Shown: piece by piece, positions 296 through 30,605 of the stretch
Layout of the letters: each line of letters starts with the position of its first letter
Numbering within the stretch: position 1 is the first letter of the stretch
From: a virus
IMG/VR virus record: IMGVR_UViG_3300025097_000996
Span: 1-49,053 of that record
Length of the DNA stretch: 49,053 nucleotides
Direction: 5' to 3' (one strand)
The notes under the pieces: model-generated
What the model saw: only the letters and a program-made list of their open reading frames with translations
Databases searched by the model: none
What the model was told of the DNA's origin: nothing
Position numbers and translations under genes: made by a program

Positions 296-721
296 ATGGC
301 ATTGGCATATACAACAAACCGTACAGATCCATTTAATATTTTTGGAGATTTTTTGAACAGAGAATGGTCAGCTTCAAGGGCTACCGTAAAATATCCGCTA
401 GATATTGTGGAATCTAAAGATGCATATAAAGTTAAGATTTCTTTACCCGGTGTGGAAAAAGGTAATCTTTCAGTTACTATAGATAAAGACATTCTAGTTA
501 TAGAAGCTAAGGATGTAGCAGCTGAAAACGAAGAAGAGAAAGGTACATATATTTATAAAGGTATTAGAACAGGATCTTACAAGAGAGAAATCTCTGTAAA
601 AGATTATGGTGTAGATAGTAAAAAAGTTACTTCAGTCTACAAGAATGGCATTTTAACAATTAACATGCCTAAGACGAAGGAGGCAAAACCACAGGTTATT
701 ACCGTGGCTATGGATGGATAA
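296..721 (+). CDS. Hsp20 / alpha-crystallin small heat-shock protein
   Basis: This 141-residue protein has the alpha-crystallin domain layout: a variable N-terminus, then a beta-rich domain beginning at YPLDIVESKDAYKVKISLPG, and a short C-terminal tail after GILTINMPK, the family's typical end-strand motif. Small heat-shock proteins are ATP-independent holdase chaperones, and phages including cyanophages carry them. It has a clear AGGAGG site and is the first gene after a perfect promoter, so it should be made early and in quantity. Its stop overlaps the start of the sigma factor gene by one base, suggesting coupled translation. Confidence 0.9.
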   Translation: MALAYTTNRTDPFNIFGDFLNREWSASRATVKYPLDIVESKDAYKVKISLPGVEKGNLSVTIDKDILVIEAKDVAAENEEEKGTYIYKGIRTGSYKREISVKDYGVDSKKVTSVYKNGILTINMPKTKEAKPQVITVAMDG

Positions 722-1260
722 TGGAGATAAATGATGAATTAATTAGGCAATGGGAACCTAAAATTCATAAAATGCTTCAAACAACATATGTACGTGGGTA
801 TGATAGAGAGGATTTAGCACAAGAACTTAGAATGGCTATTATGAAAGCCGCTAAGGCATTTAATCCTAATAGAGGAACTATCTTTCATACCTACTTACAT
901 ACCACTATGGTGAATGCAATTAGAACACTAATTACTAAAGCACAAAGAAAACCAATTACTGTTAGTTATAATGAAAATTTTTATGATAATGAATCGAATT
1001 CATTACCTGAAATAATAAGCAAAGCAATATCTCATTCTGATGTAGAAGAATGGGAGACATTAGAATTAAAAGATCAATTAAACAAATTTAATTTAACTGA
1101 TCAAGAGAAAAGATTTATAGAATTAAGATTAGAAGGTTGGACAATGGACGAAATTTCTGAAGATTTAACTAAATCTTCATATAGAATTCGCCAAAAGTTA
1201 AGAGTTAAAGTGGAGACAATATTTTATGGTGAAGAAACCGAAGAAGAAAAGTCTATATAA
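721..1260 (+). CDS. Phage-encoded sigma-70-like factor
   Basis: This 179-residue protein has a region 2-like segment at about residues 25-75 (GYDREDLAQELRMAIMKAAK, then RGTIFHTYLHTTMVNAIRTL) and a region 4-like helix-turn-helix at about 120-165 (LTDQEKRFIELRLEGWTMDE). It is compact, like ECF sigma factors and phage sporulation-type sigma factors. Translation is probably coupled to Hsp20 because its own ribosome site is weak. It likely redirects host RNA polymerase to phage promoters. The TAGTATAATA class of promoters found before the phosphoesterase, membrane and capsid genes is the obvious target, but that link is inferred. Confidence 0.8.
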   Translation: MEINDELIRQWEPKIHKMLQTTYVRGYDREDLAQELRMAIMKAAKAFNPNRGTIFHTYLHTTMVNAIRTLITKAQRKPITVSYNENFYDNESNSLPEIISKAISHSDVEEWETLELKDQLNKFNLTDQEKRFIELRLEGWTMDEISEDLTKSSYRIRQKLRVKVETIFYGEETEEEKSI

Positions 1261-8883: not shown

Positions 8884-9124
8884 AGTAATTAGAGCTGTAG
8901 TACTAGAAGATGTTCTTAAAGAAAGAGAAAGACAAGATAAAATGTATGGAGATCAAACTAACCATTCTGATCAGTATTGGAATGTAATTGCAACTGAAGA
9001 GAATGGTGAAGTAGCCAGAGCTATTTACGAAGAAGATGATGGACATATGTATGAAGAAATTATTCAAGCCTGTGCTGTATATTTTGCTTGGGCAGAAGCA
9101 ATTAGAACAAGGGGACAAGAATGA
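8876..9124 (+). CDS. MazG-like nucleotide pyrophosphohydrolase
   Basis: The 82-residue protein has the phage MazG-like layout: VLKERERQDKMYGDQ, then TEENGEVARAIYE with the metal-binding EExxE glutamates, then YEEIIQACAVYFAWAEAI. Relatives hydrolyse NTPs or (p)ppGpp-like nucleotides. A GGAGG site fixes the start; the earlier in-frame ATG lies inside the previous gene. The stop overlaps the recA start as ATGA. Confidence 0.75.
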   Translation: MSEVIRAVVLEDVLKERERQDKMYGDQTNHSDQYWNVIATEENGEVARAIYEEDDGHMYEEIIQACAVYFAWAEAIRTRGQE

Positions 9125-10062
9125 AAGACAATGCAGAAAAAGCAATCCAAGATTTATTAAAAGATAAAAATCTTAATTTAACGCTGGGAGATAGTAATGT
9201 TTTTGACTATGGTAGAATTCCTTTTGGAATACCTGCTCTTGATACATTGACTGGTGGTGGTATACCAAAGAAACGAATGACTTTAATTTACGGTCCAACT
9301 AATGTTGGTAAGTCTTATTTATCATCACAAATAGTTGCTCAAGTACAAAAACAAGGTGGTAGAGCAGCATGGATTGATACAGAACTATCTTGGGATGCAG
9401 ATTGGATGGCAAAATGTGGAATAGACGCAGGAAAAGTATTAGTTAGTCAACCAACAAGTGGTGAGCAAGCTATGGACACTATTAAAGCATTAGCAACAAC
9501 AGGATTAGTAGATGTGATTATTTTAGATAGTATCGCAGGTTTAGTCCCTGCTCAAAATATGGATGAAGATTTTTCATTTAGTCCTATGGCTTGGCAAGCA
9601 AGATTTGTTAATTCGTCTTTACCAAGACTATTACCAAGTCTACATAGTGGAACTGCTTTAATTTGCATTAATCAGGTTAGAGCTAGTATGGGACCTACTG
9701 CATTAGCAAACATGCCGGGTGGTAAAGCTCAATCTTTCTTTGCTCATTTCTTATTAGAAGTTAGAAGAAATGGATGGATTGAAGAATCTGGTGAGAAAGT
9801 TGGATTTGATATGCAAGTAAGACTACGAAAAACTAAAGTTGGTGGTCAGAATTGGAAAGCCGCTTCTGTTCCATTTAGAGTAGAAGGTGGAATAGATATT
9901 TTAGAAAGTTTTATTAGAGAAGGTATTGAACGAGGTTTAGTCCTAAAGGCAGGATCATGGTATACATATAATGATGTAAGAGCTCAAGGTATGAATGGTC
10001 TTAAACAAGTCTTTATTGATAAACCAGAATTACAGGAGCAATTAATAAATGATGTTTCCTAG
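9121..10062 (+). CDS. recA: RecA-like recombinase
   Basis: The 313-residue protein carries the RecA ATPase core: Walker A GPTNVGKS at 58-65, Walker B VIILD with the Asp at 136, the AWIDTE segment near 83-88, and INQVRASMG near 185, the RecA-type motif before the DNA-binding loop. PGGKAQSFFAHFLLEVRR also matches RecA. It forms the strand-exchange filament. It is shorter than bacterial RecA and lacks most of the acidic C-terminal domain, as phage versions do. Two nucleases and RuvC follow, which completes a recombination module. Confidence 0.9.
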   Translation: MKDNAEKAIQDLLKDKNLNLTLGDSNVFDYGRIPFGIPALDTLTGGGIPKKRMTLIYGPTNVGKSYLSSQIVAQVQKQGGRAAWIDTELSWDADWMAKCGIDAGKVLVSQPTSGEQAMDTIKALATTGLVDVIILDSIAGLVPAQNMDEDFSFSPMAWQARFVNSSLPRLLPSLHSGTALICINQVRASMGPTALANMPGGKAQSFFAHFLLEVRRNGWIEESGEKVGFDMQVRLRKTKVGGQNWKAASVPFRVEGGIDILESFIREGIERGLVLKAGSWYTYNDVRAQGMNGLKQVFIDKPELQEQLINDVS

Positions 10063-11001: not shown

Positions 11002-11498
11002 TGGAAGATGAAAAATGGACTCCCATAAAAGCTTTAGGGAGAGCTAGGAAATCAATCAATGAATTAATGATTCCCGAATTAACAGTAGATAAATCAGAAA
11101 GAACAGATTTAATATTTTCTGATGTATATAATGCTGGTAATGCAAAGCTAGAAGAATATCTAGTTATGTATAGTAGTTACAAAGCATATTTGGAAACTGA
11201 AATTTCTAGAAGAGAATCAGAAAGAAACGCTTTAGAAGCAGCCTTTGAAGAAGGTTATTCAAAAGCTATGTTTACCCTATATCAAGAAAGAGAAAATGAA
11301 GGTAAAAAGAAACCTGTAAAAGAAGAAATTAGGGGTGAAATATTTAGCAAATATCCCGGACTTGAAAATAGGAGAAAAGAAATAATTGAAAAAGAAATAG
11401 CTGTGAGAGAACTTGCAGGTTTATTAAATACATATACAACTGCATATAATACTATAAGCAGAATTGTAGCTCTAAGAACATATGGAGGTGAGAAATGA
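11001..11498 (+). CDS. Unknown coiled-coil protein in the recombination module
   Basis: The ATG at the TAATG overlap follows AAGGAGG and gives 165 residues (MEDEKWTPIKALG). The product is nearly all helix with long charged stretches (SRRESERNALEAAFEEGYSK). No family was recognised. Its place between the Cas4-like nuclease and RuvC suggests a recombination accessory or mediator, but nothing in the sequence proves it. Confidence 0.7.
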   Translation: MEDEKWTPIKALGRARKSINELMIPELTVDKSERTDLIFSDVYNAGNAKLEEYLVMYSSYKAYLETEISRRESERNALEAAFEEGYSKAMFTLYQERENEGKKKPVKEEIRGEIFSKYPGLENRRKEIIEKEIAVRELAGLLNTYTTAYNTISRIVALRTYGGEK

Positions 11499-11962
11499 TA
11501 TTAGGATTGGATTGTTCATCTAGAACTGTACATGGCGTAGTATTAAATGATAAAGAAGAAATTGTAACACGATTTAAAACAGGTAAATATAAGGAAGATT
11601 TTGATATAAGATTTGTTAAAATAACTGATAATTTTGATGGGATATTAAGTAAAATAAAAGTAGAGAAAGCTTTTGTTGAAGCTGCAATTTACATACAAAA
11701 TCCAAAATCTACAATTGAAATAGCTAGAGTTGTCGGTGGGGTTCAACTTACTTGCAATAAATATAGAACACCTTGTCAGTTGGTGGATAACACTAAATGG
11801 AAGAAAGAGGTAGTAGGTAAAGGAAATTGTTCCAAATCCGATATTATGTCTTTTGCAATTGAAAAATGGGGTGATAATTTTGAGGAACAAGATTTTGCAG
11901 ATGCAGCTTGCATTGCTTTATATGGTTTAAAGGAGGGAAAAGAAAATGGCAATACCCAGTAA
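11495..11962 (+). CDS. ruvC: RuvC-like Holliday junction resolvase
   Basis: The 155-residue protein has the RNase H-like fold of RuvC. D6 is in MILGLDCSSR, E62 in FVEAAIY, and D133/D136 in EQDFADAACIALYG, giving all four acidic catalytic positions. It resolves recombination intermediates and branched DNA before packaging. It begins at an ATGA overlap with the previous gene and ends 17 bases into the next, keeping the recombination genes in one unit. Confidence 0.88.
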   Translation: MILGLDCSSRTVHGVVLNDKEEIVTRFKTGKYKEDFDIRFVKITDNFDGILSKIKVEKAFVEAAIYIQNPKSTIEIARVVGGVQLTCNKYRTPCQLVDNTKWKKEVVGKGNCSKSDIMSFAIEKWGDNFEEQDFADAACIALYGLKEGKENGNTQ

Positions 11963-12961: not shown

Positions 12962-14606
12962 AAAACAGCAAGAGGCAGTTACATTTCAAGATGCATTTAG
13001 TAGATTAGCTGATGGATTAACTACTGGAAATGTTAGTTATCAAGTTGGAAGCTTTTATGAGTTTCTTAGAGATGTTTGGTCACAGAGTTTTGACAACCCT
13101 GAGTATTTTGGAGCTTGGCATGTAGGTGTTTTAGCTGAAGATATAGAGGAATGTTTAGAAACAGGTCTGAATTATGTTGCAGTATTACCACGATTTCATT
13201 TTAAATCGACTGTATTAGGGCATGCTTTTAGTGTATGGAGACTTTTAAAGGCTAAAAGAGATTGTTCTGTTTTATATTTGTCATACAGTGATGGTATGGC
13301 GAGATATCATTTGTCTGAAATAAATAAAGCTGTAAGTAGAAATCCTATTTTGACAGAACTTATGGATAATCGTTCTCCAAAGGCAGATTATTCATTTAGA
13401 TATTATGTTAATAAAAAACCTATGGAGATAATGCATGGTGGTTTATTCTCTTTCAAACGTGGTATGCATGTTAATGGAGCTTTAATTGCCGATGATGTAT
13501 TGCGTGATCCTGAGAATCCTTTAAATACTGGACAGATAACAAAAGTAGAAGATCATTTTATGACGGAAAGTATGTTCATTCCTTTAAAGGGTGTACCAGT
13601 AATTGTATTAGGTACTCCTATGATGCCCGGAGACTTATTAAGTAATTTACAAAAAGATGAAAGATTTAAATCAAGAGTATTACCAGCTCTCGATCCAACA
13701 CCCGATAGAAAAGTGTTGATGCCAGAATTGTATAATGAAAAATGGTTATTAGAACAACAAAAAGCAAGACCTAAATCATTTGCTTCAGAGTTTTTACTAG
13801 TACCTCATTTTTCAACTGAGGCATATTTTCATGAAGAAGATATAGTTAAATGTGAAGATGAAACTTTACGAAGTGTATCAGTCCATCAACCTTTTAAAAT
13901 GGAAGCTGGTGATCAACTTTTTGCTGGATTTGATGTGGGTAAGAAAAGACACCCATCACACTTAGTAATTTTTAGAAGAAGAGATGAAAAGATTGAACAA
14001 GTCCATCAATCATGGTTAGATGGTTGGGACTATTCAAAACAAATACAATATTTAAATGAGGTAGCAGAAAACTTTAGTTTACATAAAGGATATATAGATA
14101 ATACAAGAGGAGAACTTGAAGATAGAGGATTAGATCCTGTGTGGCATTCTATGACCTTTTCACAAAAAAGTAAAAGAACTATGGCACAAATATTTGAAGA
14201 ATATACTCATTCAGATAATTTACATTTAATAAAAGATGAAAGACAAAAACAACAGATTCTTTCTGTGAGTAATGACTTAAAAGCTCCTGAGACTCCAATG
14301 GGTCATGGAGATGCATTCTTTTCGATTGCTATGGCATTACAAGCATGTTATGAAACAACTGTTTATAAATATGAAAGCTTAGGAAGTTTGACTGATTGGT
14401 TGGAAGCAGTGTCGCCTGAAGAAAAGAATACAGTACAAGAAGAAGCAAAATTACCAGACCTGTCAAAATGGACAGGAAATGAGTATAATAAAGATAAGCA
14501 AGAAAAACAAAAAGCCCCAAATCCCAACTGCGATGAGTTGGTATGTATGCCCAATTTCTGGGTTGAAGAAAAAAATTTATGTCTGTACTGTGGTTACAGA
14601 GGATAG
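12948..14606 (+). CDS. terL: Terminase large subunit with C-terminal zinc knuckle
   Basis: The 552-residue packaging motor has an ATPase half with the P-loop PRFHFKST at 81-88, where Phe stands before the Lys instead of Gly, and Walker B ALIADD near 180. The nuclease half has aspartates in AGFDVGKK, GYIDNTRG and GHGDAFF. After the usual end of TerL the protein adds C528, C533, C545 and C548 (DELVCMPN, LCLYCGYRG), a probable zinc knuckle. It pumps DNA into the prohead and cuts it. Its stop is 13 bases before the reductase TTG start. Confidence 0.92.
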   Translation: MTFSKKQQEAVTFQDAFSRLADGLTTGNVSYQVGSFYEFLRDVWSQSFDNPEYFGAWHVGVLAEDIEECLETGLNYVAVLPRFHFKSTVLGHAFSVWRLLKAKRDCSVLYLSYSDGMARYHLSEINKAVSRNPILTELMDNRSPKADYSFRYYVNKKPMEIMHGGLFSFKRGMHVNGALIADDVLRDPENPLNTGQITKVEDHFMTESMFIPLKGVPVIVLGTPMMPGDLLSNLQKDERFKSRVLPALDPTPDRKVLMPELYNEKWLLEQQKARPKSFASEFLLVPHFSTEAYFHEEDIVKCEDETLRSVSVHQPFKMEAGDQLFAGFDVGKKRHPSHLVIFRRRDEKIEQVHQSWLDGWDYSKQIQYLNEVAENFSLHKGYIDNTRGELEDRGLDPVWHSMTFSQKSKRTMAQIFEEYTHSDNLHLIKDERQKQQILSVSNDLKAPETPMGHGDAFFSIAMALQACYETTVYKYESLGSLTDWLEAVSPEEKNTVQEEAKLPDLSKWTGNEYNKDKQEKQKAPNPNCDELVCMPNFWVEEKNLCLYCGYRG

Positions 14607-14619
14607 AAGGAGAATTAAA

Positions 14620-16497
14620 TTGGTTACGCAATTAACACAACAGGCGGAAACAGTAGCAACAAGCCGATACTATTTAAAAGATGAAGACAACAAAATTATT
14701 GAAAACGCAGAAGAAATGTTTAAAAGGGTAGGAATAGCGATTGCTAAACTTGATATGTTGTATGGACGAATGGCTCCAGAAGCATCTATGACTGCGATAG
14801 ATTTTATAGATATAATGAAAGACTTAAAATTTATCCCCAACTCACCAACTCTAATGAATGCAGGAACTAATCAAGGAACTTTATCTGCATGTTTTGTCTT
14901 ACCTTTAGAAGATAGTATGGAAGGTATCATGAAAACAGCACATGACATTGCTATGGTTCAAAAATTTGGGGGAGGAACTGGGTTTTCTCTTTCTAAATTA
15001 CGACCAAGAGGTGATCGGATAAAGACAACTCATGGAATTGCTTGTGGACCAATACAAGTTTTAAAAACACTTTCTAGAGTATCATCTATGATTACTCAAG
15101 GTGGAAAAAGAGATGGTGCAAATATGGCAGTAATGTCAATATATCATCCTGATATCTTAGAATTTATAGATTGTAAAAAAGTAGAGGGTGAAATACACAA
15201 TTTTAATATTTCAGTTGGAGTAGATGCTAATTTTATGAAGGCAGTAGAATCTAATTCGGATTATAATTTAATAAATCCAAAAAATAATGAGGTTGTTGAA
15301 CAACTAAATGCTAAAACAGTATTCAATAAAATTATTTATGGGGCTTGGAGAAACGGAGAACCGGGCATGGTATTTTTAGATAATATAAATAAAGATAATC
15401 ATGTTAAAGAAGAATATGGTGAAATGATTGCGACTAATCCATGTGGTGAACAACCATTATTAGGAAATGAATCATGTAATTTAGGTTCTATTAATTTAGC
15501 AAAATTTTATAATGAAGATGAAAATAATGTTGATTGGTCAGAATTAGAAAGATCTGTAAAAACTTCTGTACATTTTTTAGATAACGTAATTGATGCTAAT
15601 GAATATGCAACGCCAGAAATAGAAAAAATGACTAAAGCTACTAGAAAAATAGGTTTAGGTGTTATGGGATTTGCAGATTTGTTAATTCAGCTGAAAATTA
15701 AGTATAATAGTATAGAAGGACATAAATTAGGTAAAGATATTATGTCTTTTATCAGAGACAAAGCTAATAAACAATCAATTAAGTTAGCTAAAGAACGAGG
15801 TACTTTTCCTGCATGGGATAAAAGTAACTATGGTGAAGATGAGAAATATAGAAATGCTTGTCGTCTAACAGTTGCACCTACAGGAACTATCTCTATGTTA
15901 GCAGATACTTCTAGTGGAATTGAGCCAACTTTTGCATTGGCTTGGAAAAAATCTAATATATTAGAAGGACAAACTTTATATTATATAAATAAATATTTTG
16001 AGACAGATGCTAAAGCACATGACTTCTATTCAGAAGATTTAATGGAGCACCTATCTCAAGGAGGGTCATTACAGACTAGAGATGATGTACCAACATGGGC
16101 TAAAGAAATATATGTTACAGCTCCAGAAATATCTGCAGAAGATCACGTTGAAATGCAAGCAGTTTTTCAGGAAGATTGTGATTCTGGAATCTCAAAAACA
16201 ATTAATTTTCCTAATGAAGCATCCATCAATAATGTTGAGTCAGCTTACTTATCAGCTTGGAAACTTGGTTGTAAAGGTATTACAGTCTATAGAGCAGGAA
16301 GTAGAGAAAAAGAAGTTTTGGTTAAAGGAACAGAAGAAAAAGAAGAAATTGTGAATGATCAATTAAATTTTTTCAATTCTATACAAATCCCCTTTAAACC
16401 TATTTCATCTGATTGTTGTGAGTCTCCTCAAATTATTATGGAGTCAGGTTGTGAGACCTGTAAAACATGTGGGTGGAGCATGTGTCATGTGGCATAA
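14620..16497 (+). CDS. nrdJ: Class II (adenosylcobalamin-dependent) ribonucleotide reductase
   Basis: The 625-residue enzyme has the NrdJ-type sequence [20 protein letters not shown] with the active-site Cys near 275. C91 in SACFVLP is the partner Cys, followed by [18 protein letters not shown] and a C-terminal redox tail ([12 protein letters not shown]). It reduces ribonucleotides using vitamin B12 and needs no NrdB, and none is present. The TTG start was chosen because AAGGAG lies seven bases upstream; earlier in-frame starts run back into TerL. The thioredoxin 8 kb downstream could reduce the tail cysteines. Sitting between terminase and portal is unusual for a metabolic gene. Confidence 0.92.
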
Positions 16498-16997: not shown

Positions 16998-18680
16998 ATG
17001 GCTAAAATATCAGAATTTCTTCCAGATGTGCCTCAAGTAGCTAAGACTATTTCAAATTTGAACGAACAGATTAATATGTTACAGCTTATGAAATCTGCTG
17101 GGGATACTGGACAAGCTCCTACTATTGGGTTGGATCATGTAGTCAATACATGGGTTCGACATCAAATGGCGTATCGCCAACAACTTGTAATGGATTTACA
17201 GACTATTACTTTTTCTGTACAAGAAATTAGAGGTCCATTAACACATATTACAGGTGAAGTATTTAGAAGGGGTATGAAAATTGTCCCAATAGTTAAAAAC
17301 CCAGATAAAGCTCAACTAACTAGATTTAGTAGATTTTTAACTGATGCGAATGTATTTGACCAAAGTTTAGAAGAAGTATTAAGACAATTCCATTTTGATG
17401 TTAATTCAATTGATGATGGATTTTTATATTTAGCTAAAGAATATGAAGAGTTGGGTGATGGTAAAATCGGTGCTAAAGTTAAAGAAATAAGACGTTTAAA
17501 CCCAGCTTTAGTAGAGTTTGATTTAGATGCTGCCGGACTTCCAAAAAATGCTCATTTTATTTGTCCATTAGACAGAACTGATATAGCTGAAGAACCGGGC
17601 AAATCTAAAAAAGGATATAAAAGAATTCCTGCAATGTATAAATACTATCACAGGAATCAACATATGTATTTGGCAGATTCAGAAGTAATACATTTATCTA
17701 AATTCTCACCATCTGAAACTTATGGATGGTCTCCTATTTTAACAGTGTTTGAAAAAGCATTGACTCTAATAGGTATGGATAAAAATTTATATAGATATTT
17801 CTTTGAAAGAAAAATGCCAGCCTCTATGATTATGGTAACTACTGATGATCCTGAGAGTTTGAGAAGAGAAAGAGCTCATATTGCAGCTCAAACTAGACTT
17901 GATCCAAACTTTATTCCTATGGTAGCAGTATCATCTAGAAACAATAGAGGTAGAGTTGATATGGTAAGATTGTTCCACACTCTTCAAGAGATGGACTATA
18001 TGCCAATTAAACAAGAAATTAGAGAAAGAATTGCATCTATGTGGGGAGTATCTCCTACATGGCAAGGAACACCTGAAGCATTTGGTGGTTTATCAAACAC
18101 TACACAAAACTTAACAGTAATGAGTAGAGTGGTAGAATCAGATCAAAGACTATTCCACGACAAAATTTTTCCTGAATTGTTTAGAGCTTTTGGAATTACA
18201 GATTGGGAAATTGAATTACCACAACCTGAAGAAAAAGCTGAAGCAACTATTATTTCCCATGCTCAACAAAAAGTTGCAATTGCAAATCAATTAGCACAAT
18301 TAGGCTTTACTATTGAGTTGAAAGACCCTGAAGTAGATATAAAAGAGGCTGAATTTCTAGTTAGTGGAGAAGCAGTTCCAGCAGCTAAGATGCAAGGAGA
18401 ACAACAAGCAATGCAATTAGAACAACAACAGCAGCAAATTGAACAGGCTAAACAGCAGGCTGAAATGGCTCAAATGCAATCAGCTATTGAAGAGGGAGCT
18501 GGTGAAGAAGGTGGTGAAGAAGGCGAAGAAATGGAAAAAAGTATCCGTGGATTTAAAGATTTAGATGAACTTCTTGACTATAAACCAAAGGAAAAAGCAG
18601 AAGATGAAGAAGATGAAGAAGATGAAGAAGATGAATATTCACATGTGGAAGAAGTTGAAGATGAAGAACATGATTATTAG
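16998..18680 (+). CDS. Portal protein
   Basis: The 560-residue protein sits downstream of TerL (with the reductase and one unknown gene between). Portal-like features include LVMDLQTITFSVQEIRGPLT, the EVIHLSKFSPSETYGWSPIL segment typical of phage portals, and a helical stem around KQEIRERIASMWGVSP. The ring of portal subunits is the channel for DNA entry and exit. The C-terminal 100 residues are unusual: a Gln-rich stretch (QQAMQLEQQQQQIEQAKQQA) followed by a strongly acidic tail (EDEEDEEDEEDEYSHVEEVE), both absent from typical portals. Confidence 0.85.
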   Translation: MAKISEFLPDVPQVAKTISNLNEQINMLQLMKSAGDTGQAPTIGLDHVVNTWVRHQMAYRQQLVMDLQTITFSVQEIRGPLTHITGEVFRRGMKIVPIVKNPDKAQLTRFSRFLTDANVFDQSLEEVLRQFHFDVNSIDDGFLYLAKEYEELGDGKIGAKVKEIRRLNPALVEFDLDAAGLPKNAHFICPLDRTDIAEEPGKSKKGYKRIPAMYKYYHRNQHMYLADSEVIHLSKFSPSETYGWSPILTVFEKALTLIGMDKNLYRYFFERKMPASMIMVTTDDPESLRRERAHIAAQTRLDPNFIPMVAVSSRNNRGRVDMVRLFHTLQEMDYMPIKQEIRERIASMWGVSPTWQGTPEAFGGLSNTTQNLTVMSRVVESDQRLFHDKIFPELFRAFGITDWEIELPQPEEKAEATIISHAQQKVAIANQLAQLGFTIELKDPEVDIKEAEFLVSGEAVPAAKMQGEQQAMQLEQQQQQIEQAKQQAEMAQMQSAIEEGAGEEGGEEGEEMEKSIRGFKDLDELLDYKPKEKAEDEEDEEDEEDEYSHVEEVEDEEHDY

Positions 18681-18688
18681 GAGATAAT

Positions 18689-21600
18689 ATGGTTTGGATA
18701 CAGAAACAAGGTAGAGAGGGCTTAATCCCCAAAAAAATTTCTGAAACTGTTCACCCTAAACAAGGGCTTCCATTTGAACGTAGAACTACTGTGTATGTGA
18801 AGCCAGAAGTTCCTGAGTTTGTAAATGAATGGTTAAATAATTTTGATTCTAAAGTTCCAATTTATTTAGTTGGAGGTTCAGTTAGAGATTCTATATTAGG
18901 AAAAGCTCCAAAAGATGTAGATGTAATTACTTTTAGTCCTAAAAAAGATGTAGAAGCAGCTCTTAAAACCGTTAAAACAAAATTCTATCAAGGTGGTAAA
19001 AATTTACCTAATTTAGTTACTGCCAATTTAGGTAAAAACCAATTGATTGATATTTTAAGTACGGACACAGATATCGAAACTGAATTAGTCAGAAGAGATT
19101 TCACTATAAATGCAATGGCTCAAAAACCTAATGGAGAAGTTATTGATCCTTTTGGAGGACGTAAAGATTTAAAAGAAGGAATTTTAAGATCACCTAAAGA
19201 TGATAGTGATAAAGTTTTTAAAGATGATCCTTTAAGAATGTTTAGAGCAGCACGATTTATTGGGCAGTTAAATTTAAAACCCCATAGTTCAGTTACTGAT
19301 GCTATTAAAAAACATAGAAGTTTACTTGAGGATTTACCAAAAGAAAGAATTGGAAAAGAACTTGGACTTATATTATTTTCAAAAGATCCAACTAAAGGAT
19401 TAAACTTTCTAAAAGAAAATGATATTTTAAAATATATTGACCCAGCTTTGCAAAGAACAGTTGGATTTGTTCAAAATATGGATGGACATGATAATGATGT
19501 CTGGAATCATACAATGAAAGCTTTAGAACATCATATTAAACAAGATGAAAAATATCCTGATTTAACTACCAGACTTGCAATATTATATCACAATGTTGGA
19601 AAACCTGCAACTGCCGATAAAAATAATAGTTCGTTTAATAACTATGAAGGAGTGGGGGCTCAATTAACTGAAGAAGGACTTAATATGTTACGTTTTCCTG
19701 CTGATATTGTAGATACAGTTAGAAAATTAGTTCAACACCACACTTCTCCTAAAACTGCTAAAACAGAAGGAGATCATAGAAGAATACAACTTAAATTAAG
19801 AGATGACGTAGCGAAATTAAATTACTTAGCTACTGCTCATGAAGTTGGTAAAGAAGGAAATACAGATGCAGATACTTCACATATTGTAAACTTTCAAGAT
19901 AGAATTGATAATTTAGAGCCTGTAGAAGCTGAAGGTGAAGGTTCCTCTAATCTTTCTCCATTAAGTGGTAAAGAAATAATGGATGAACTTGATATTAAAC
20001 CTAATAGAAAAGGTGGTGGGCAACAGATAGGACAAATTAAAGACTATCTCAATACTTTAGTTATTGAAGGTGAATTAAAACAATCTGATAAAGAGACAGC
20101 TTTAAAAAGAGCAAAAGCATACAATTCAACTTTCACAAAAAAATCCAATAATGTTTTAAAAAATTGGTTAAATATATTAAAAGCTGATGATGATGGGATA
20201 GATATACATCCAGAAACTGGTGAGGTTTCTTGGAAAGTAGATAAAGTAGCCCATAGAGAATCAATAGAAAATAAACAAAGTGAATTATTTGATAATAAAA
20301 GACGTAACTTAAAGTTAGTTCCAAGAAAACTTACAGATAAAAATGGTAAGGAAGTTACACGATGGTGTAGACCGGGTTGGGAAAATGTACCTCAATCTGA
20401 AGGTGGTATGGTCACAGATCCTAACTCTATGTATTTTGGAAAATTCCCTATAAAAACTCATGGACATGATCCTTTCGATCCTAACTCAATGACAGAAACC
20501 AAAAAGGGTGACAAATTTATTACTGGTGTTAGATTAGCTCACGAAGATGACAATCATGATACACATAAACACTTCACAGGTGAAGGTAAAAAGGGTAAAA
20601 AGGTTCCATGGGGTATACATGATATGCATATAAGCCATGATCCATATGATGAATTTCTACATAAAGGTAAAAATAAAGCTACAGGAAATCTAAGTAGATC
20701 TCACGGTCCGGGAATGACCGACCCAGAAATTATAGCAATAAAAGATATTCAAAAAGAATATCAACTAAAAGCTCTACGAAAACAATTACCTTTATTAACT
20801 ACAGAACTTGATAAACAATATAATAGTGAAACACCTGATGTAAGAGCTTTAATTACAGGTATAATGATGGAAACAGGGCTTAGGATAGGGAATCCTGCTG
20901 ATGCAATTAAAAAAATAAAAGATCCTAAAGTAGCAGAGTCATATGCAACTTCTACATTTAAAAAGAAACACATATCAATAAAAGGTGATACAATTAGATA
21001 TAATTTTCCGGGAAAAAATAAAACTATTCAATCTGGTTCTTTTAAACATAAAGGATTAGCAAAAGGTTTAACAACTGTATTGAAAACTAAGAAGGATGAT
21101 GATTTTGTGTTTGAACAAAATGGTAAATTTTATGATGAAGATGGCGTAAAGGACTATCACAATAAGATTATGAAAGTTGCTAAGGGTCATGTAATAAAAA
21201 ATCATAATTTTAGACATAGAAAAGCAACTACTATGACAATTAAAAATGTTACTGAATTTATTGAGAAAGCAAAAAATTTATCTTTTATAAAGACAAAGGG
21301 AGATTTTCAAGACTTTCAAAAACGAATGGCTACTGATGCAGCAAGACAATTAAATCACCCAGATACTAAAGGTGAATTTTGGAACACTGATATGACTTTA
21401 AAGTCTTATATTATGCCAAGTTCATTTTCTTATGTTGATGAAAATAACAATCAAGTTTTAATAAAAGATCAAGTAGATAACGAAAACAAAAAACTTTCAA
21501 ATGACTATCAAAATAGAATGGGAGAATTAACAGGCACAAAAAAATATGAGAAAGTTCCACTTAAAACTGTACAATTAGATAAAGCCTATGATGGCAAAGA

Positions 21601-21988
21601 ATTTGATCCAACTAGGAAAAAAGAGAAAGATATAGACACTTATTTTGAAAATAGGAAAGAGAAAGAGGAAGATAGGAACTATGGGTTAGATAAAATTCCA
21701 CCTCATATGAGACCTAGACCAAAATATTATACTAAAACATGGATTGAAGGATTAGCGGATAAAGGATATATATCTCCTATGATTAAATCTTTTAGTCCAG
21801 ATAGTTCTAAAATGTGGTTCATTCAAGGAAATACAGATTTCGTAGCACATTTAGACTCAACAGGAGTAAGTCATGTTGAAAAGGCTACCTTTGCTCCATT
21901 ACCCTCAAATGCTACTAATACAATAAGTTACGCCCCATCAGCCTCAAATAAGAGACGGGAGGAAGATATTGATGAAGAAGAAGAATAA
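18689..21988 (+). CDS. Fusion: CCA-adding/poly(A)-polymerase-like nucleotidyltransferase, HD-like domain, type IB topoisomerase
   Basis: The 1099-residue product has at least three parts. Residues 55-195 match class II CCA-adding/PAP enzymes: VGGSVRDSILG at 61-71, DVD at 76-78, RRDFTINAMA at 135-144 and DDPLRMFRAARF at 179-190. Residues 270-355 look like the HD domain of those enzymes, but the HD pair is His-Asn in LYHNVGKP. Residues 700-915 resemble a type IB topoisomerase: ETGLRIGN (R732), FPGKNKT (K776), HNFRHRKAT (R842) and KSYIMP with the probable nucleophile Y907. The end is acidic. It lies nine bases after the portal gene in the head operon, so the protein may be packaged. The fusion itself is read directly as one uninterrupted frame. 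Confidence 0.8.
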   Translation: MVWIQKQGREGLIPKKISETVHPKQGLPFERRTTVYVKPEVPEFVNEWLNNFDSKVPIYLVGGSVRDSILGKAPKDVDVITFSPKKDVEAALKTVKTKFYQGGKNLPNLVTANLGKNQLIDILSTDTDIETELVRRDFTINAMAQKPNGEVIDPFGGRKDLKEGILRSPKDDSDKVFKDDPLRMFRAARFIGQLNLKPHSSVTDAIKKHRSLLEDLPKERIGKELGLILFSKDPTKGLNFLKENDILKYIDPALQRTVGFVQNMDGHDNDVWNHTMKALEHHIKQDEKYPDLTTRLAILYHNVGKPATADKNNSSFNNYEGVGAQLTEEGLNMLRFPADIVDTVRKLVQHHTSPKTAKTEGDHRRIQLKLRDDVAKLNYLATAHEVGKEGNTDADTSHIVNFQDRIDNLEPVEAEGEGSSNLSPLSGKEIMDELDIKPNRKGGGQQIGQIKDYLNTLVIEGELKQSDKETALKRAKAYNSTFTKKSNNVLKNWLNILKADDDGIDIHPETGEVSWKVDKVAHRESIENKQSELFDNKRRNLKLVPRKLTDKNGKEVTRWCRPGWENVPQSEGGMVTDPNSMYFGKFPIKTHGHDPFDPNSMTETKKGDKFITGVRLAHEDDNHDTHKHFTGEGKKGKKVPWGIHDMHISHDPYDEFLHKGKNKATGNLSRSHGPGMTDPEIIAIKDIQKEYQLKALRKQLPLLTTELDKQYNSETPDVRALITGIMMETGLRIGNPADAIKKIKDPKVAESYATSTFKKKHISIKGDTIRYNFPGKNKTIQSGSFKHKGLAKGLTTVLKTKKDDDFVFEQNGKFYDEDGVKDYHNKIMKVAKGHVIKNHNFRHRKATTMTIKNVTEFIEKAKNLSFIKTKGDFQDFQKRMATDAARQLNHPDTKGEFWNTDMTLKSYIMPSSFSYVDENNNQVLIKDQVDNENKKLSNDYQNRMGELTGTKKYEKVPLKTVQLDKAYDGKEFDPTRKKEKDIDTYFENRKEKEEDRNYGLDKIPPHMRPRPKYYTKTWIEGLADKGYISPMIKSFSPDSSKMWFIQGNTDFVAHLDSTGVSHVEKATFAPLPSNATNTISYAPSASNKRREEDIDEEEE

Positions 21989-22844
21989 AACACTTAATAA
22001 ATTATTAAAATTATTAAAAGAAGGGGGAGGAGCTGCCACTTCTGGAAGCTTTGGAGATGGTGGTGGAACTGTATTCACATCTACCGATTCAGGTATATTT
22101 ACTCCTACTTATGGTGGTGGAGGTTCTAAAAGACGTAGACCTCACATCAGAAAACCAAAAACAAAGAAGAGTGGTATTGAAAGATTAGATGCATTTCTTA
22201 GAGAATTTAGTCCTGTGCCTAAATCAGTAGAAAAAAGTAAATTAACATCTGACGCATTAATTCAATTAGTTGATTCTGTTAGAAAAGCAGAATATCCAAC
22301 TAGAGGTTATGGGGGCAATTTAGGTAGGAAACAATTAGATTGGAAGAAACCTAATAGTAATGAAGAACCTCCAAAAGTTTCTGAATTTAAAGGTGAAATT
22401 AATCATGAAGAAGATGAATCAGCAGTGATTGAACAAAAAGATATGGAACAAAAGATTAGAAATTTAGATGATAAATCTAGAAAAGAAGGTAGAGATCATT
22501 CAACTGAAGATGAAACTATGTCAGCAGATACACCTGAATTAGTTACTTTAAAAGGTTTATCTCCATCAGCTGATGATTCTAATCCTTATAAAAGAGGAGG
22601 CAAGATGGATAATATTGATGATAATCCTGAAATAAAAAAGGATGAATTAGATAAATTTATAGACAAATATCTAACTATAGATAAAGAAGTAGGTGGGGCA
22701 GCTACTCAAACAACTTTTCAAGAAAGAGAAGTACTTGATGAAGATGAGGATGAAAAAGAAGAAGACATGATTGAAGAAGAAAAGCATGTAAAAGAAGTAG
22801 TGCATCCTAAAGGACAAAAAGAAACATATTCTACAGATGAATAG
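21972..22844 (+). CDS. Gly-rich, acidic low-complexity protein of the head module
   Basis: The 290-residue product has a Gly-rich head (GGGAATSGSFGDGGGTVFTS), a basic patch (GGGGSKRRRPHIRKPKTKKS) and a long acidic tail (EDEDEKEEDMIEEE). The start is the ATG nine bases after GGAGG; a TTG one codon earlier is also possible. It overlaps the fusion gene by 17 bases. It may be a head-assembly or internal virion protein. No family was recognised. Confidence 0.65.
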   Translation: MKKKNKTLNKLLKLLKEGGGAATSGSFGDGGGTVFTSTDSGIFTPTYGGGGSKRRRPHIRKPKTKKSGIERLDAFLREFSPVPKSVEKSKLTSDALIQLVDSVRKAEYPTRGYGGNLGRKQLDWKKPNSNEEPPKVSEFKGEINHEEDESAVIEQKDMEQKIRNLDDKSRKEGRDHSTEDETMSADTPELVTLKGLSPSADDSNPYKRGGKMDNIDDNPEIKKDELDKFIDKYLTIDKEVGGAATQTTFQEREVLDEDEDEKEEDMIEEEKHVKEVVHPKGQKETYSTDE

Positions 22845-22974: not shown

Positions 22975-23282
22975 ATAATAGAAGCACTAAAAATAAATGT
23001 GATAGATGTGGTGGTTTTATAATCTTTGATGAAGACAATGATTTAAAATGTGTGCAGTGTGGAAGACAAATAATACTAAAATTAGCAAGGAGCAAACATG
23101 TGGAACAAAGGAGAGACAAAGATACCGGTAAAGGCACAATCAGAACTGGTAAGAAGAAGACAAGCGGGAACAACGTGGACAAGTCTATCGGAATGGCTAA
23201 AATCAGCATTCGGGATAGAAATACACCGAACCAACATTCAAAGATGGTACGACAAAGAGGTTTATTTAGATCAAGAAGATGA
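22965..23282 (+). CDS. Zinc-ribbon reading frame overlapping the phosphoesterase gene
   Basis: The first third is a convincing zinc ribbon: CDRCGG, then 12 residues on, CVQCGR. The rest is basic and Gln/Thr-rich and runs for 185 bases across the phosphoesterase N-terminus in another frame. No good ribosome site or start was found; GTG at 22965 lies inside the promoter. It may be a decayed small zinc protein or a true overlapping gene. Confidence 0.3.
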   Translation: MIKYNRSTKNKCDRCGGFIIFDEDNDLKCVQCGRQIILKLARSKHVEQRRDKDTGKGTIRTGKKKTSGNNVDKSIGMAKISIRDRNTPNQHSKMVRQRGLFRSRR

Positions 23283-24456
23283 ACTATTAGATCCTGAAGT
23301 AGACCCTACTTATCATATTAAGATGAGTAAAAAAGCAGAAACCTATAAAGCGGAATCTAGGTATTTCAAAAAATTATATGAGACTACAATCAAAGATCAA
23401 GCTAAACAAGAAATCTTTGAAGAATCAATTATTAAATTAGCACCTGCATTTAATAAAGCTAAAAAAGTGAAGATTCGAAAGCCTTCAGGAAAAACTAAGG
23501 GTAACAGTGCTCAAAGTATGATTGCTCCTTTAACTGATACTCATGTTGGAGATAGAGTTGAAAGTGATCAAATGGCAGGTTTGAATCATTACAACATTGA
23601 CATCTTCAACCGAAGGCTTTATGGATGGGCAAATCAAGTATTAACTCTTGCTGAAATGCGAAGAACTTATGCAGAAGTTGACGAACTTGTGGTTCCAATG
23701 CTTGGAGATATGATTAGTGGTGATATTCATGAAGAACTTGCTAGAACTAATGTTGACAATTGTATGGGACAAATGATTAGGGGAGCAAATCTTATTGCTC
23801 AAGCTCTAATGTTTCTAGCTCCTCATTTCAATAAAATGAGAGTTCCTTGTGTAGTAGGTAATCATGGTCGTATGACTAGGAAACCTCCTATGAAAGATAA
23901 GCATCAAGATTGGGATTATATGTTATATCAATGGATTGCAGCTTTCTGCAGAAATCAAGATAACATTGAATTCCATATTCCAAAAACATTCTCAACTACA
24001 ATAGAAGTAGCTAACAGACAAATATTTTTAACACATGGAGACTTTATAAATGGAGCTGGTAGTGGTACTGCTATTACTAAAGGTGTGTTAAACATGAGAA
24101 ATGTACTTCAATTCAGGAGAGGATTAGAAGATGAGATTAGAAATCTTGAGATTAAAAATCTTGAACAATCAGGAATGTCAACATACTTTGATACAGTATT
24201 GATGGGACATTTTCACCGAATAGATGAAATAGATATAGGTACAGGAGCAATACATTTGTGTGGCTGCATGAAGGGTGGAGATGAATTTGCTATGCAAAGA
24301 GTTCAAGCAATCAATAAACCAAGACAACTTGTATTATATTACCATCCAAAATATGGAGAGATTGGTAAGGAAATCATATATTTAAATAGATACGATTCTA
24401 CAGAAAGCGAATTTAATGATGTTATACCAGAAGTATGGCATACAAATCTACCATAA
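23098..24456 (+). CDS. Calcineurin-like metallophosphoesterase with N-terminal HTH-like region
   Basis: The 452-residue protein has the full metallophosphoesterase set: DTH at 147-149, LGD near 202-204, GNHGR near 256, THGD near 312 and GHFHR near 370. It should hydrolyse phosphoesters at a two-metal site; the substrate is unknown and could be nucleic acid. The first 60 residues (TWTSLSEWLKSAFGIEIHRT) look like a small DNA-binding helix-turn-helix of the TerS type, so the enzyme may act on DNA. AAGGAGC fixes the start. Confidence 0.85.
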   Translation: MWNKGETKIPVKAQSELVRRRQAGTTWTSLSEWLKSAFGIEIHRTNIQRWYDKEVYLDQEDELLDPEVDPTYHIKMSKKAETYKAESRYFKKLYETTIKDQAKQEIFEESIIKLAPAFNKAKKVKIRKPSGKTKGNSAQSMIAPLTDTHVGDRVESDQMAGLNHYNIDIFNRRLYGWANQVLTLAEMRRTYAEVDELVVPMLGDMISGDIHEELARTNVDNCMGQMIRGANLIAQALMFLAPHFNKMRVPCVVGNHGRMTRKPPMKDKHQDWDYMLYQWIAAFCRNQDNIEFHIPKTFSTTIEVANRQIFLTHGDFINGAGSGTAITKGVLNMRNVLQFRRGLEDEIRNLEIKNLEQSGMSTYFDTVLMGHFHRIDEIDIGTGAIHLCGCMKGGDEFAMQRVQAINKPRQLVLYYHPKYGEIGKEIIYLNRYDSTESEFNDVIPEVWHTNLP

Positions 24457-24469
24457 ACGAGGACTAAAT

Positions 24470-24823
24470 ATGAGTAATGTAATTGAATTAAATGATGAAA
24501 ATTTTGGAGACGAAGTTATAGAATCTTCTAAACCAGTATTAATAGATTTCTGGGCAGCGTGGTGTGGTCCTTGTAAAATGATTGCTCCATACGTAGAAAA
24601 GATTAGTAAGGATTATGAAGGAACATTAAAGGTATGTAAGTTAGATGTAGATGCGAATCCAGTTATGGCATCAATTTATGAAATAAAGTCTCTCCCTACA
24701 CTATTAATTTTCAAAGATGGTTCTCAAGTAGATCAAATGGTTGGTGCAGTGAGTCAAGATGTAATATCGTCTAAAGTTGATGCATATATATTTGGACAAG
24801 ATTTAACTGAAATCCCCAAATAA
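24470..24823 (+). CDS. trxA: Thioredoxin
   Basis: The 117-residue protein has the classical WCGPC site (C32, C35) in DFWAAWCGPCKMIAPY, the cis-proline in SLPTLLIFKDG, and normal length. It is a cytosolic dithiol reductant and the likely electron donor for the phage NrdJ reductase; T7 also uses host thioredoxin as polymerase processivity factor, so a link to the family A polymerase is possible but not shown. The start ATG (MSNVIELND) was chosen because GAGGA precedes it; an earlier in-frame start lies within the phosphoesterase gene. Confidence 0.93.
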   Translation: MSNVIELNDENFGDEVIESSKPVLIDFWAAWCGPCKMIAPYVEKISKDYEGTLKVCKLDVDANPVMASIYEIKSLPTLLIFKDGSQVDQMVGAVSQDVISSKVDAYIFGQDLTEIPK

Positions 24824-29237: not shown

Positions 29238-30605
29238 ATGGCAAATCCATCATTATCTGAGTATATTGCTCAGTCTCAAAGAGGTTTGTACTCGTCTGTA
29301 TTCGGACCTGAATACTTACAGAAACAGACTTACTTTACAGTGGACACTGCTACAGGTATTTTTAATACTACCTATGGTAGGAAAGTTTGGCATGCGTTAA
29401 ACAACCAAACTCGTTTTTTCAATGCTGTCCCAAGAACTGTTTGGGGCAACACAGCTGGTTGGAGAATAAGAACTGACCGAGGTTCAAGTCGATCAAGACC
29501 TGTAACTGAAACTGGTTCACTCCCTACAGTTGACATTTCTAACATTGCAAACGTATCTAGCTTGCCTAGAATCGTTTCAACTACTTTCGGTGCTTCAGTG
29601 AAGTCAGTCTTTACTGCACAGCTAGAAGGTGGTGTTGGTGATGTTCTAGCATTGGAAAACGAAAACGCACAACTTGACCACGTTAAAGAAATTAACGAAG
29701 AATTAATGGCAGGCTCTGGATACGTTGTATCAGCTGGTTCTACAACCACTGGTACTGTCCCAGCAGCTGTCGCAAAAAATATTAAGATAGGTGACAATGT
29801 TGCCTATTGGGATACATCTGCAAATGGTTACATTGATACAGGTGGGATGGCAGTGAGTGGTGTGAATACAACTACTGGTGTTGTTACACATGCTTCAACT
29901 GATTCAATAACTATTGCTGACGGTGATGGTATGATTGTTGTGTCAAGAGCAGGATTGACATCTATTGATGATATCGTTCAGGCAGATGGTGCTGTTGTTG
30001 GTGGGTCATATGACTCAAATGCAGCCTTCGCTTCAGGCGGTGGAGTACAAGCGTATGACTTAACATTTGGTGACAGAGCTGCAGGTAACTGGAACGCTGC
30101 TGCTACAGTTAAGGATAACAACGGTACAGGAAGAGATTTATCTCTAAACCTACTTGATGATTGTATTCAATCAGTAAGAACTAATGGTGGAGAACCTAAA
30201 CTAATCGTTATGGGTCACGACCAATACTTCAAACTTGAGAGATTACTACAATCACAACAGAGATACTTAGGACAGGAAGAGTACCAAGTTGGTGTTGGTT
30301 CTGAAAGAACCTTCCCCGGAACTCGTACTGGTCTAGTTCTTGCTACTTACCAAGGTATTCCAATACTTCCAGATGCTGACACTCCAAAGAGTGTTAGTAC
30401 AGCTGACGCAGTTTTGGGTTCAAACGTATATGTTTTGGACACAGACTACCTTGAAATAGCTGTGGCACAACCAACACAGTATATAGAAAACAGAGATTAC
30501 TTCGCAGCTAATGCGTTAGTAGTCAGAGGTTTACTATACACTATGGCAGAAATGCGATGTCACAACTTCTTTGTACAAGCTAAGATTGTTGATTTAAATA
30601 CATAA
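29238..30605 (+). CDS. Major capsid protein, HK97 fold
   Basis: The 455-residue protein has HK97-type features. An N-terminal arm is followed by NNQTRFFNAVPRTVWGNTAG, then SSRSRPVTETGSLPTVDISN, then in the A-domain part LLDDCIQSVRTNGGEPKLIV, YQGIPILPD and YVLDTDYLEIAVAQP. The last two patterns are typical of HK97-fold capsids. A beta-rich stretch at about 160-240 with TTTGTVPAAVAKNIKIGDNV is probably an inserted surface domain. It follows the scaffold gene by 33 bases with a GAGGAG site. Synonymous sites use C more than the accessory genes do. Confidence 0.88.
   Translation: MANPSLSEYIAQSQRGLYSSVFGPEYLQKQTYFTVDTATGIFNTTYGRKVWHALNNQTRFFNAVPRTVWGNTAGWRIRTDRGSSRSRPVTETGSLPTVDISNIANVSSLPRIVSTTFGASVKSVFTAQLEGGVGDVLALENENAQLDHVKEINEELMAGSGYVVSAGSTTTGTVPAAVAKNIKIGDNVAYWDTSANGYIDTGGMAVSGVNTTTGVVTHASTDSITIADGDGMIVVSRAGLTSIDDIVQADGAVVGGSYDSNAAFASGGGVQAYDLTFGDRAAGNWNAAATVKDNNGTGRDLSLNLLDDCIQSVRTNGGEPKLIVMGHDQYFKLERLLQSQQRYLGQEEYQVGVGSERTFPGTRTGLVLATYQGIPILPDADTPKSVSTADAVLGSNVYVLDTDYLEIAVAQPTQYIENRDYFAANALVVRGLLYTMAEMRCHNFFVQAKIVDLNT

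Follow-up and report, generated by a model that had tools for sequence, protein, structure and literature searches.

Why should a phage encode, directly behind its portal gene, a single protein that combines an RNA-end-modifying enzyme with a DNA topoisomerase, and where in the infection cycle would such a protein act? The question is raised by the window analysed here, the whole 49,053-nucleotide stretch of viral DNA in IMG/VR record IMGVR_UViG_3300025097_000996. The initial annotation had described one long frame joining a CCA-adding or poly(A)-polymerase-like nucleotidyltransferase (NTase), an HD-like region and a type IB topoisomerase (TopoIB)-like domain, and had argued from adjacency to the portal gene alone that the product may be packaged and ejected with the DNA. 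Below, the clade refers to viral contigs that carry an NTase-HD-TopoIB-portal C-terminal domain (CTD) gene behind the portal, and L-numbers denote related loci.

Gene content and probable host

The window has a GC content of 33% and encodes a DnaG-type primase as well as the following genes.

721..1260, plus strand: sigma-70 family factor (TIGR02937 at 2e-18, above the cut-off)
9121..10062, plus strand: RecA of the bacterial type (PF00154 at 3e-49; TIGR02012 at 5e-58, below its equivalog cut-off)
11495-11962: RuvC-like gene
16998..18680, plus strand: portal protein, 560 aa, core only (phrog_18178 portal at 4.6e-34; closest annotated proteins, Druskaviridae portals)
29238..30605, plus strand: major capsid protein (phrog_24667 at 3e-19; Druskaviridae major capsid protein by tblastn)

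The sigma-70 factor, bacterial-type RecA, DnaG-type primase and RuvC-like protein indicate that the host is probably a bacterium. An archaeal host is suggested by the portal and capsid proteins, whose nearest annotated counterparts belong to the haloarchaeal Druskaviridae, but was dropped because the same four genes argue for a bacterium. The head module spans domains of life: a Druskaviridae-like portal and capsid accompany sigma factor, RecA and RuvC-like genes of bacterial type. Elsewhere in the window, a B12-dependent (class II) ribonucleotide reductase (14479-16497) lies between the terminase and portal genes, and an Hsp20-type small heat-shock protein gene (296-721) lies beside the sigma factor gene.

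Architecture of the fusion protein

The gene behind the portal and its parts are as follows.

18679..18683, plus strand: AGGAG, Shine-Dalgarno-like in sequence, 5 nt before the fusion ATG and overlapping the portal stop
18689..21988, plus strand: NTase-HD-TopoIB-portal CTD fusion gene, 1099 aa
18860..19189, plus strand: class II CCA/poly(A) polymerase head domain, residues 58-167 (PF01743 at 8e-19; GGSVRD, DVD, RRDFTINAMA)
19280..19450, plus strand: PolyA_pol RNA-binding domain, residues 198-254 (PF12627 at 6e-9)
19502..19813, plus strand: HD-like region, residues 272-375, pair H301-N302 (PF01966 at 4e-4)
20600..21433, plus strand: type IB topoisomerase domain, residues ~638-915 (R732, K776, R842, H890, Y907; profile, fold and BFVD matches)
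21407..21409, plus strand: predicted active-site tyrosine Y907 (SYI-P), invariant in alignments
21584..21985, plus strand: portal-derived CTD, residues 966-1099 (tblastn, portal-only HMM, predicted fold)

The frame opens with ATG and runs through 1099 codons free of internal stops. The last base of the portal gene is 18680, and the fusion gene, the next in the head operon, starts at 18689; the AGGAG ahead of its ATG points to a separate translation start. Different marine metagenomes have yielded about ten contigs with full-length copies, at 54-100% identity, and further copies are cut by contig ends. Both the uninterrupted frame and its adjacency to the portal stand as first annotated. As every sequence is a metagenomic contig, an assembly chimera or a mis-joining of genes could be imagined; it is hardly credible, however, and was rejected, since the same joins recur across these contigs and dN/dS of 0.09-0.33 in all three segments (NTase, TopoIB and CTD) indicates purifying selection. 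The earlier domain list was right about the NTase, the His-Asn pair and the topoisomerase but missed the third part, the portal-derived residues 966-1099. By homology, the protein is a fusion of a predicted class II CCA-adding NTase, a degenerate HD region, a type IB topoisomerase and a portal CTD.

The NTase half is recognised by several independent models. Its PF01743 and PF12627 matches each exceed the Pfam cut-off, the CCA-adding enzyme 6ibp in the PDB matches at 2e-26, and NCBIfam TIGR02692 matches the fusion protein at 4e-59, a value under the equivalog cut-off of that model. The motifs GG-RD, DxD and RRDFTINAMA, at residues 62, 76 and 135, place it in class II. At the position of the nucleotide-selecting E-D-x-x-R motif, which L003, L004 and others carry, the window protein has D179-D180-x-x-R183. 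The HD region scores slightly below the PF01966 cut-off and has, as annotated, His-Asn (H301-N302) instead of the His-Asp metal pair of an HD phosphohydrolase such as that in the E. coli CCA enzyme. Because this Asn is invariant across the aligned clade members, the region is predicted to be inactive as a phosphohydrolase, a function probably lost; the HD pair is intact in L089 and L149.

Phage tRNA nucleotidyltransferases (phrog_2244) belong to the same NTase family. Neither the window nor 12 related loci contain a tRNA gene, so the enzyme is not obviously for phage tRNAs; this absence fits an action on host tRNAs, without proving it. A genome collection scanned with leader patterns only yielded one CCA-like protein, and hence no host link.

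The topoisomerase part is weakly matched by its single sequence (PDB 2f4q at 0.004) and is not noticeable in a single-sequence Pfam search. A profile of seven sequences matches the D. radiodurans TopIB and the topoisomerase 6z01, both at 2e-6, and the poxvirus enzyme at 1e-4; thus both enzyme families on whose profiles the initial annotation had staked its reading, PF01743/PF12627 and TopoIB, are significantly matched. PF01028 matches three of the seven members (best 2.5e-8). Foldseek with the predicted model, whose mean pLDDT of 68 is moderate, returned 22 PDB matches at E<=0.001, every one a topoisomerase IB (best 1.9e-9, against 2e-3 for the XerH recombinase), and the BFVD matches are viral TopoIB. 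Topoisomerase variants only about 25-45% identical conserve R732, K776, R842, H890 and Y907, and among variants at 35-45% identity the motif residues are invariant; the catalytic list given earlier had four of these at exact positions but left out H890. We read the middle part as a predicted type IB topoisomerase with the complete catalytic residue set R-K-R-H/N-Y. That it is instead a tyrosine recombinase or integrase is very improbable. Although the two families have a common catalytic layout and all seven members match PF00589 (best 2.6e-5), TopoIB ranks first by orders of magnitude in profile and fold searches, and in relatives the catalytic domain is still preceded by the N-terminal domain pattern of TopoIB (P...D..IS.D...). 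One of them, L059, exceeds the PF01028 cut-off (2.6e-11), and its TopoIB aligns with that of the window at 2.7e-8 in hhalign.

A portal-derived domain on the enzyme protein

A portal protein scan found hundreds of relatives. The survey covered 107 distinct portals, of which 77 had enough downstream sequence to be informative. The 560-aa window portal is without the ~110-aa CTD present on relatives' portals (640-700 aa), and the last ~130 residues of the fusion protein match those portals by tblastn with up to 47% identity (best 7.5e-29). In 53 loci, the match falls inside the portal ORF, as the portal C-terminal domain; a separate small gene for a CTD-like tail in relatives was considered and rejected, as the tail belongs to the portal ORF. 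An HMM built from portals only detects the fusion CTD at E=2e-30, against 0.2 (0.21) for the best of 500 shuffles. Among the informative loci, 11 have an NTase-TopoIB gene beside a portal without the CTD, all 11 in the window clade, and the remaining 66 portals carry it without exception. Eleven clade portals without the domain against 66/66 others with it indicate that in this clade the portal core is parted from its putative CTD, which is now on the enzyme protein. The Druskaviridae portal is without this CTD. The predicted CTD fold, a helix and a four-stranded sheet, has no significant match in a fold search against the PDB.

A slot for exchangeable enzymes

Two genes lie downstream, in or at the edge of the region in which relatives vary.

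21969..22844, plus strand: O291, the next head-operon gene, overlapping the fusion gene end; relatives have TopoIB or NTase-TopoIB as an N-terminal or internal part of it
23098..24456, plus strand: exonuclease-like gene, downstream edge of the cargo slot (phrog_284 at 2e-47)

The basic order, portal(+CTD), O291 and exonuclease, with only basic O291 in the slot, is found in 42 of the 77 informative loci. Large added parts on O291 are frequent in relatives, and in CTD-bearing loci the cargo ORF starts at the portal gene end. TopoIB is fused to O291 in L059, L064, L138, L139, L143 and L151, and the slot holds TopoIB without the NTase in L059, L138, L139, L143 and L151. The search of phages for the same domain pair, proposed with the initial annotation, succeeded: NTase and TopoIB occur together in three layouts, namely that of the window clade, NTase-TopoIB-O291 in L089, and TopoIB-O291 with the NTase inserted mid-O291 in L149 (11952-15701). 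Single-sequence Pfam and PDB searches gave nothing useful for the topoisomerase-like part of L089, whose call is based on aligned residues and on a BLAST match to L059 (6e-8) that in part covers a shared linker. The L089 and L149 NTases are 60% identical to each other. In the tree they fall among other phage CCA enzymes and separate from the window NTase, and an AU test rejects a single clade of all three (p=0.0034). Given this separation, the NTase was probably acquired twice, and the NTase-TopoIB pair probably assembled more than once.

Other enzymes occupy related slots. A PAP2-family phosphatase is on the C-terminus of an O291-type protein in L061:12874-14511 and L067:12137-13591, and DUF6321 is found in L061:11985-12881. 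HExxH- or ART-like motifs were seen by eye in slot proteins of L079, L102 and L094, which Pfam does not confirm, and the HVTV-1/HCTV-5 slot has a HEMGH-motif protein together with annotated ADP-ribosyltransferase and zeta toxin genes. A hairpin-like motif of ~32 aa (lP..AvYss.e.pPeg...f.t..G.eYWv) precedes cargo parts in L094:6285-9380, L149:11952-15701, L059:11922-13997 and L042:19681-23562; it is significant in relatives and in the HCTV-5 zeta-toxin protein (4e-6; best shuffle 0.007) and was not detected in the window protein. The gap between O291 and the exonuclease gene is another variable spot, at ~1.4 kb in L003:9281-13434 and L023:11332-14974 versus ~0.25 kb in the window. A thioredoxin gene (24416-24823) overlaps the exonuclease gene end and, of the compared loci, is shared only with L017 and L021, which are the nearest two.

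Within the clade itself, sliding identity of protein and DNA delimits one exchangeable segment.

20204..21583, plus strand: exchangeable topoisomerase cassette, residues ~506-965

In proteins with flanks 83-100% identical, identity within this segment drops locally to 33-60%, and the drop is seen at the DNA level too. For L003 and L004, identity is 96-100% across most of residues 1-480 and again in the tail, but parts of the middle are at 33-60%; the flanks of L003 and L010 are 83-100% identical, with about 33-43% in between. Such a pattern points to a topoisomerase part that is swapped as a cassette by recombination between nearly identical flanks. Parts under diversifying pressure are often exchanged in this way. 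Neither this exchange nor the recurrence of the NTase-TopoIB pair in further layouts figured in the initial annotation.

Discussion

We propose, with a probability of roughly 0.6, that the fusion protein is a virion-anchored enzyme cargo that docks via its CTD, leaves with or ahead of the DNA, and then works on DNA topology and RNA ends. The CTD and O291 are putative virion parts by homology and position, and the fusion to a portal CTD suggests that both enzymes ride in the particle and reach the host together with the DNA. In phage P1, the portal C-termini form a crown facing the capsid interior (PMC12810830), so the CTD should keep the enzymes within the head, at the portal. It would dock on the portal core in trans and retain the enzyme there, with one copy per portal subunit giving up to 12 copies; this docking is a prediction for a domain whose fold has no significant PDB counterpart. 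On infection, the protein would exit with or ahead of the DNA, by analogy to the P1 Dar proteins (PMC12810830) and polyvalent proteins (PMC5512222). The topoisomerase could then, without ATP, nick and rejoin the genome as it enters or once it is newly circular, removing torsion, and the NTase could rebuild the CCA at tRNA 3' ends after damage by host anti-phage ribonucleases, or tail RNA otherwise; jumbo-phage CCA enzymes have been proposed to act in tRNA repair (PMC7824862). The packaging and ejection first argued from adjacency thus gain much stronger indirect support from the portal CTD on the protein and from relatives' TopoIB-O291 fusions, from which we infer virion presence and ejection. 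Several points count against this cargo role: the change from HD to HN would mean that one function of the NTase half is lost, the CTD fold is without a significant PDB match, the topoisomerase model is of moderate confidence, and a protein of ~125 kDa could pass a tail only if unfolded or unusually flexible.

Two other explanations deserve weighing. The protein might be virion-resident and not ejected, working at the portal in the head, where TopoIB would, for example, remove packaging twist and the NTase would be a structural or regulatory passenger. The direct link to a portal domain, the independence of TopoIB from ATP and cofactors, and the five loci with slot TopoIB but no NTase all speak for this, yet we find it unlikely, as most relatives package DNA without a slot TopoIB (basic O291 only in 42/77) and the NTase catalytic motifs are conserved under purifying selection. 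It is quite improbable that the protein is a normal intracellular late enzyme to which the portal domain was attached by accidental rearrangement, supplying only the CTD to the portal while the enzymes stay unpackaged. Since the clade has the CTD only on the fusion protein, selection would keep it for the portal regardless of the enzymes; however, in relatives it is O291, a second head-operon protein, to which TopoIB or NTase-TopoIB is fused, cargo ORFs begin at the portal gene end where the portal bears its CTD, and a CTD joining the portal would bring the enzymes along unless cleaved. An open-access literature search for virion proteomics of HVTV-1 or PaBG covering a homologue gave nothing decisive.

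The nearest concept to a virion-anchored cargo is that of polyvalent, virion-delivered multi-enzyme proteins (Iyer et al. 2017, PMC5512222), which likewise combine several enzyme domains per polypeptide, are encoded among head genes, are thought to be injected and undergo modular shuffling; zincin-like, ART-like and zeta-toxin-like parts also occur in slots related to the window's. The fusion protein shares their arrangement, having at least two domains of effector type in a polypeptide that is encoded with head genes, and by Pfam contains none of their recurrent hub domains (zincin MPTase, ART, ArdC-N, DdrB-ParB and others). A text search of PMC5512222 found no TopoIB or CCA-type NTase among polyvalent domains and no portal CTD as a tag; pol-beta NTases are placed there only in conjugative-element proteins. 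DarA, DarB and Hdf of P1 are also large internal head proteins co-ejected with DNA (PMC12810830), but DarA and Hdf sit on the inner capsid surface, are not attached to a portal-derived domain, and have no NTase-TopoIB.

Separate components have counterparts in other viruses. Stand-alone TopoIB of Achromobacter phage Motura, Pseudomonas phage PaBG and Rhizobium phages share fold and catalytic type but are annotated as single topoisomerases, and that of Rhizobium phage RHph_I42 has no annotated portal gene within 9 kb on either side. Poxviruses have both a TopoIB (vaccinia H6R) and an RNA-3'-end polymerase, the poly(A) polymerase, although as separate proteins in an unrelated virus. The two are co-packaged in the vaccinia core, and the poxvirus poly(A) polymerase is of another family. 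A reference listed in PMC11980589 reports poly(A) polymerase in purified vaccinia virions. The annotated phrog_2244 enzymes seen are, unlike the fusion, stand-alone genes of about 400-480 aa. Druskaviridae (HVTV-1, HCTV-1, HCTV-5) have the nearest annotated portal and capsid and a similar variable slot behind the portal, but no NTase-TopoIB is annotated in that slot and their replication genes, such as RFC, are of archaeal type. No phage record covers 80% of the fusion protein, and an open-access full-text literature search returned nothing on the NTase-TopoIB pair, of which an earlier description elsewhere is possible. The fusion is real, well conserved and unusual.

Taken further, these observations suggest, at what we consider even odds, that this lineage may have split its portal and moved the CTD onto a ~125-kDa NTase-topoisomerase, making the enzymes obligate in the DNA gate; that the group may use C-terminal head-operon domains, either the portal CTD or O291, as tags for exchangeable enzymes; and that tRNA-end repair and TopoIB may have been combined more than once independently. 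If true, phages would bring enzymes of DNA topology and RNA repair into the capsid via the portal's own domain, a simple packaging tag. The clade would then provide a testable case of how an entering genome is relaxed and of how tRNA-cutting defences may be countered from time zero. It would also be a natural system for studying the exchange of enzyme cassettes at fixed borders.
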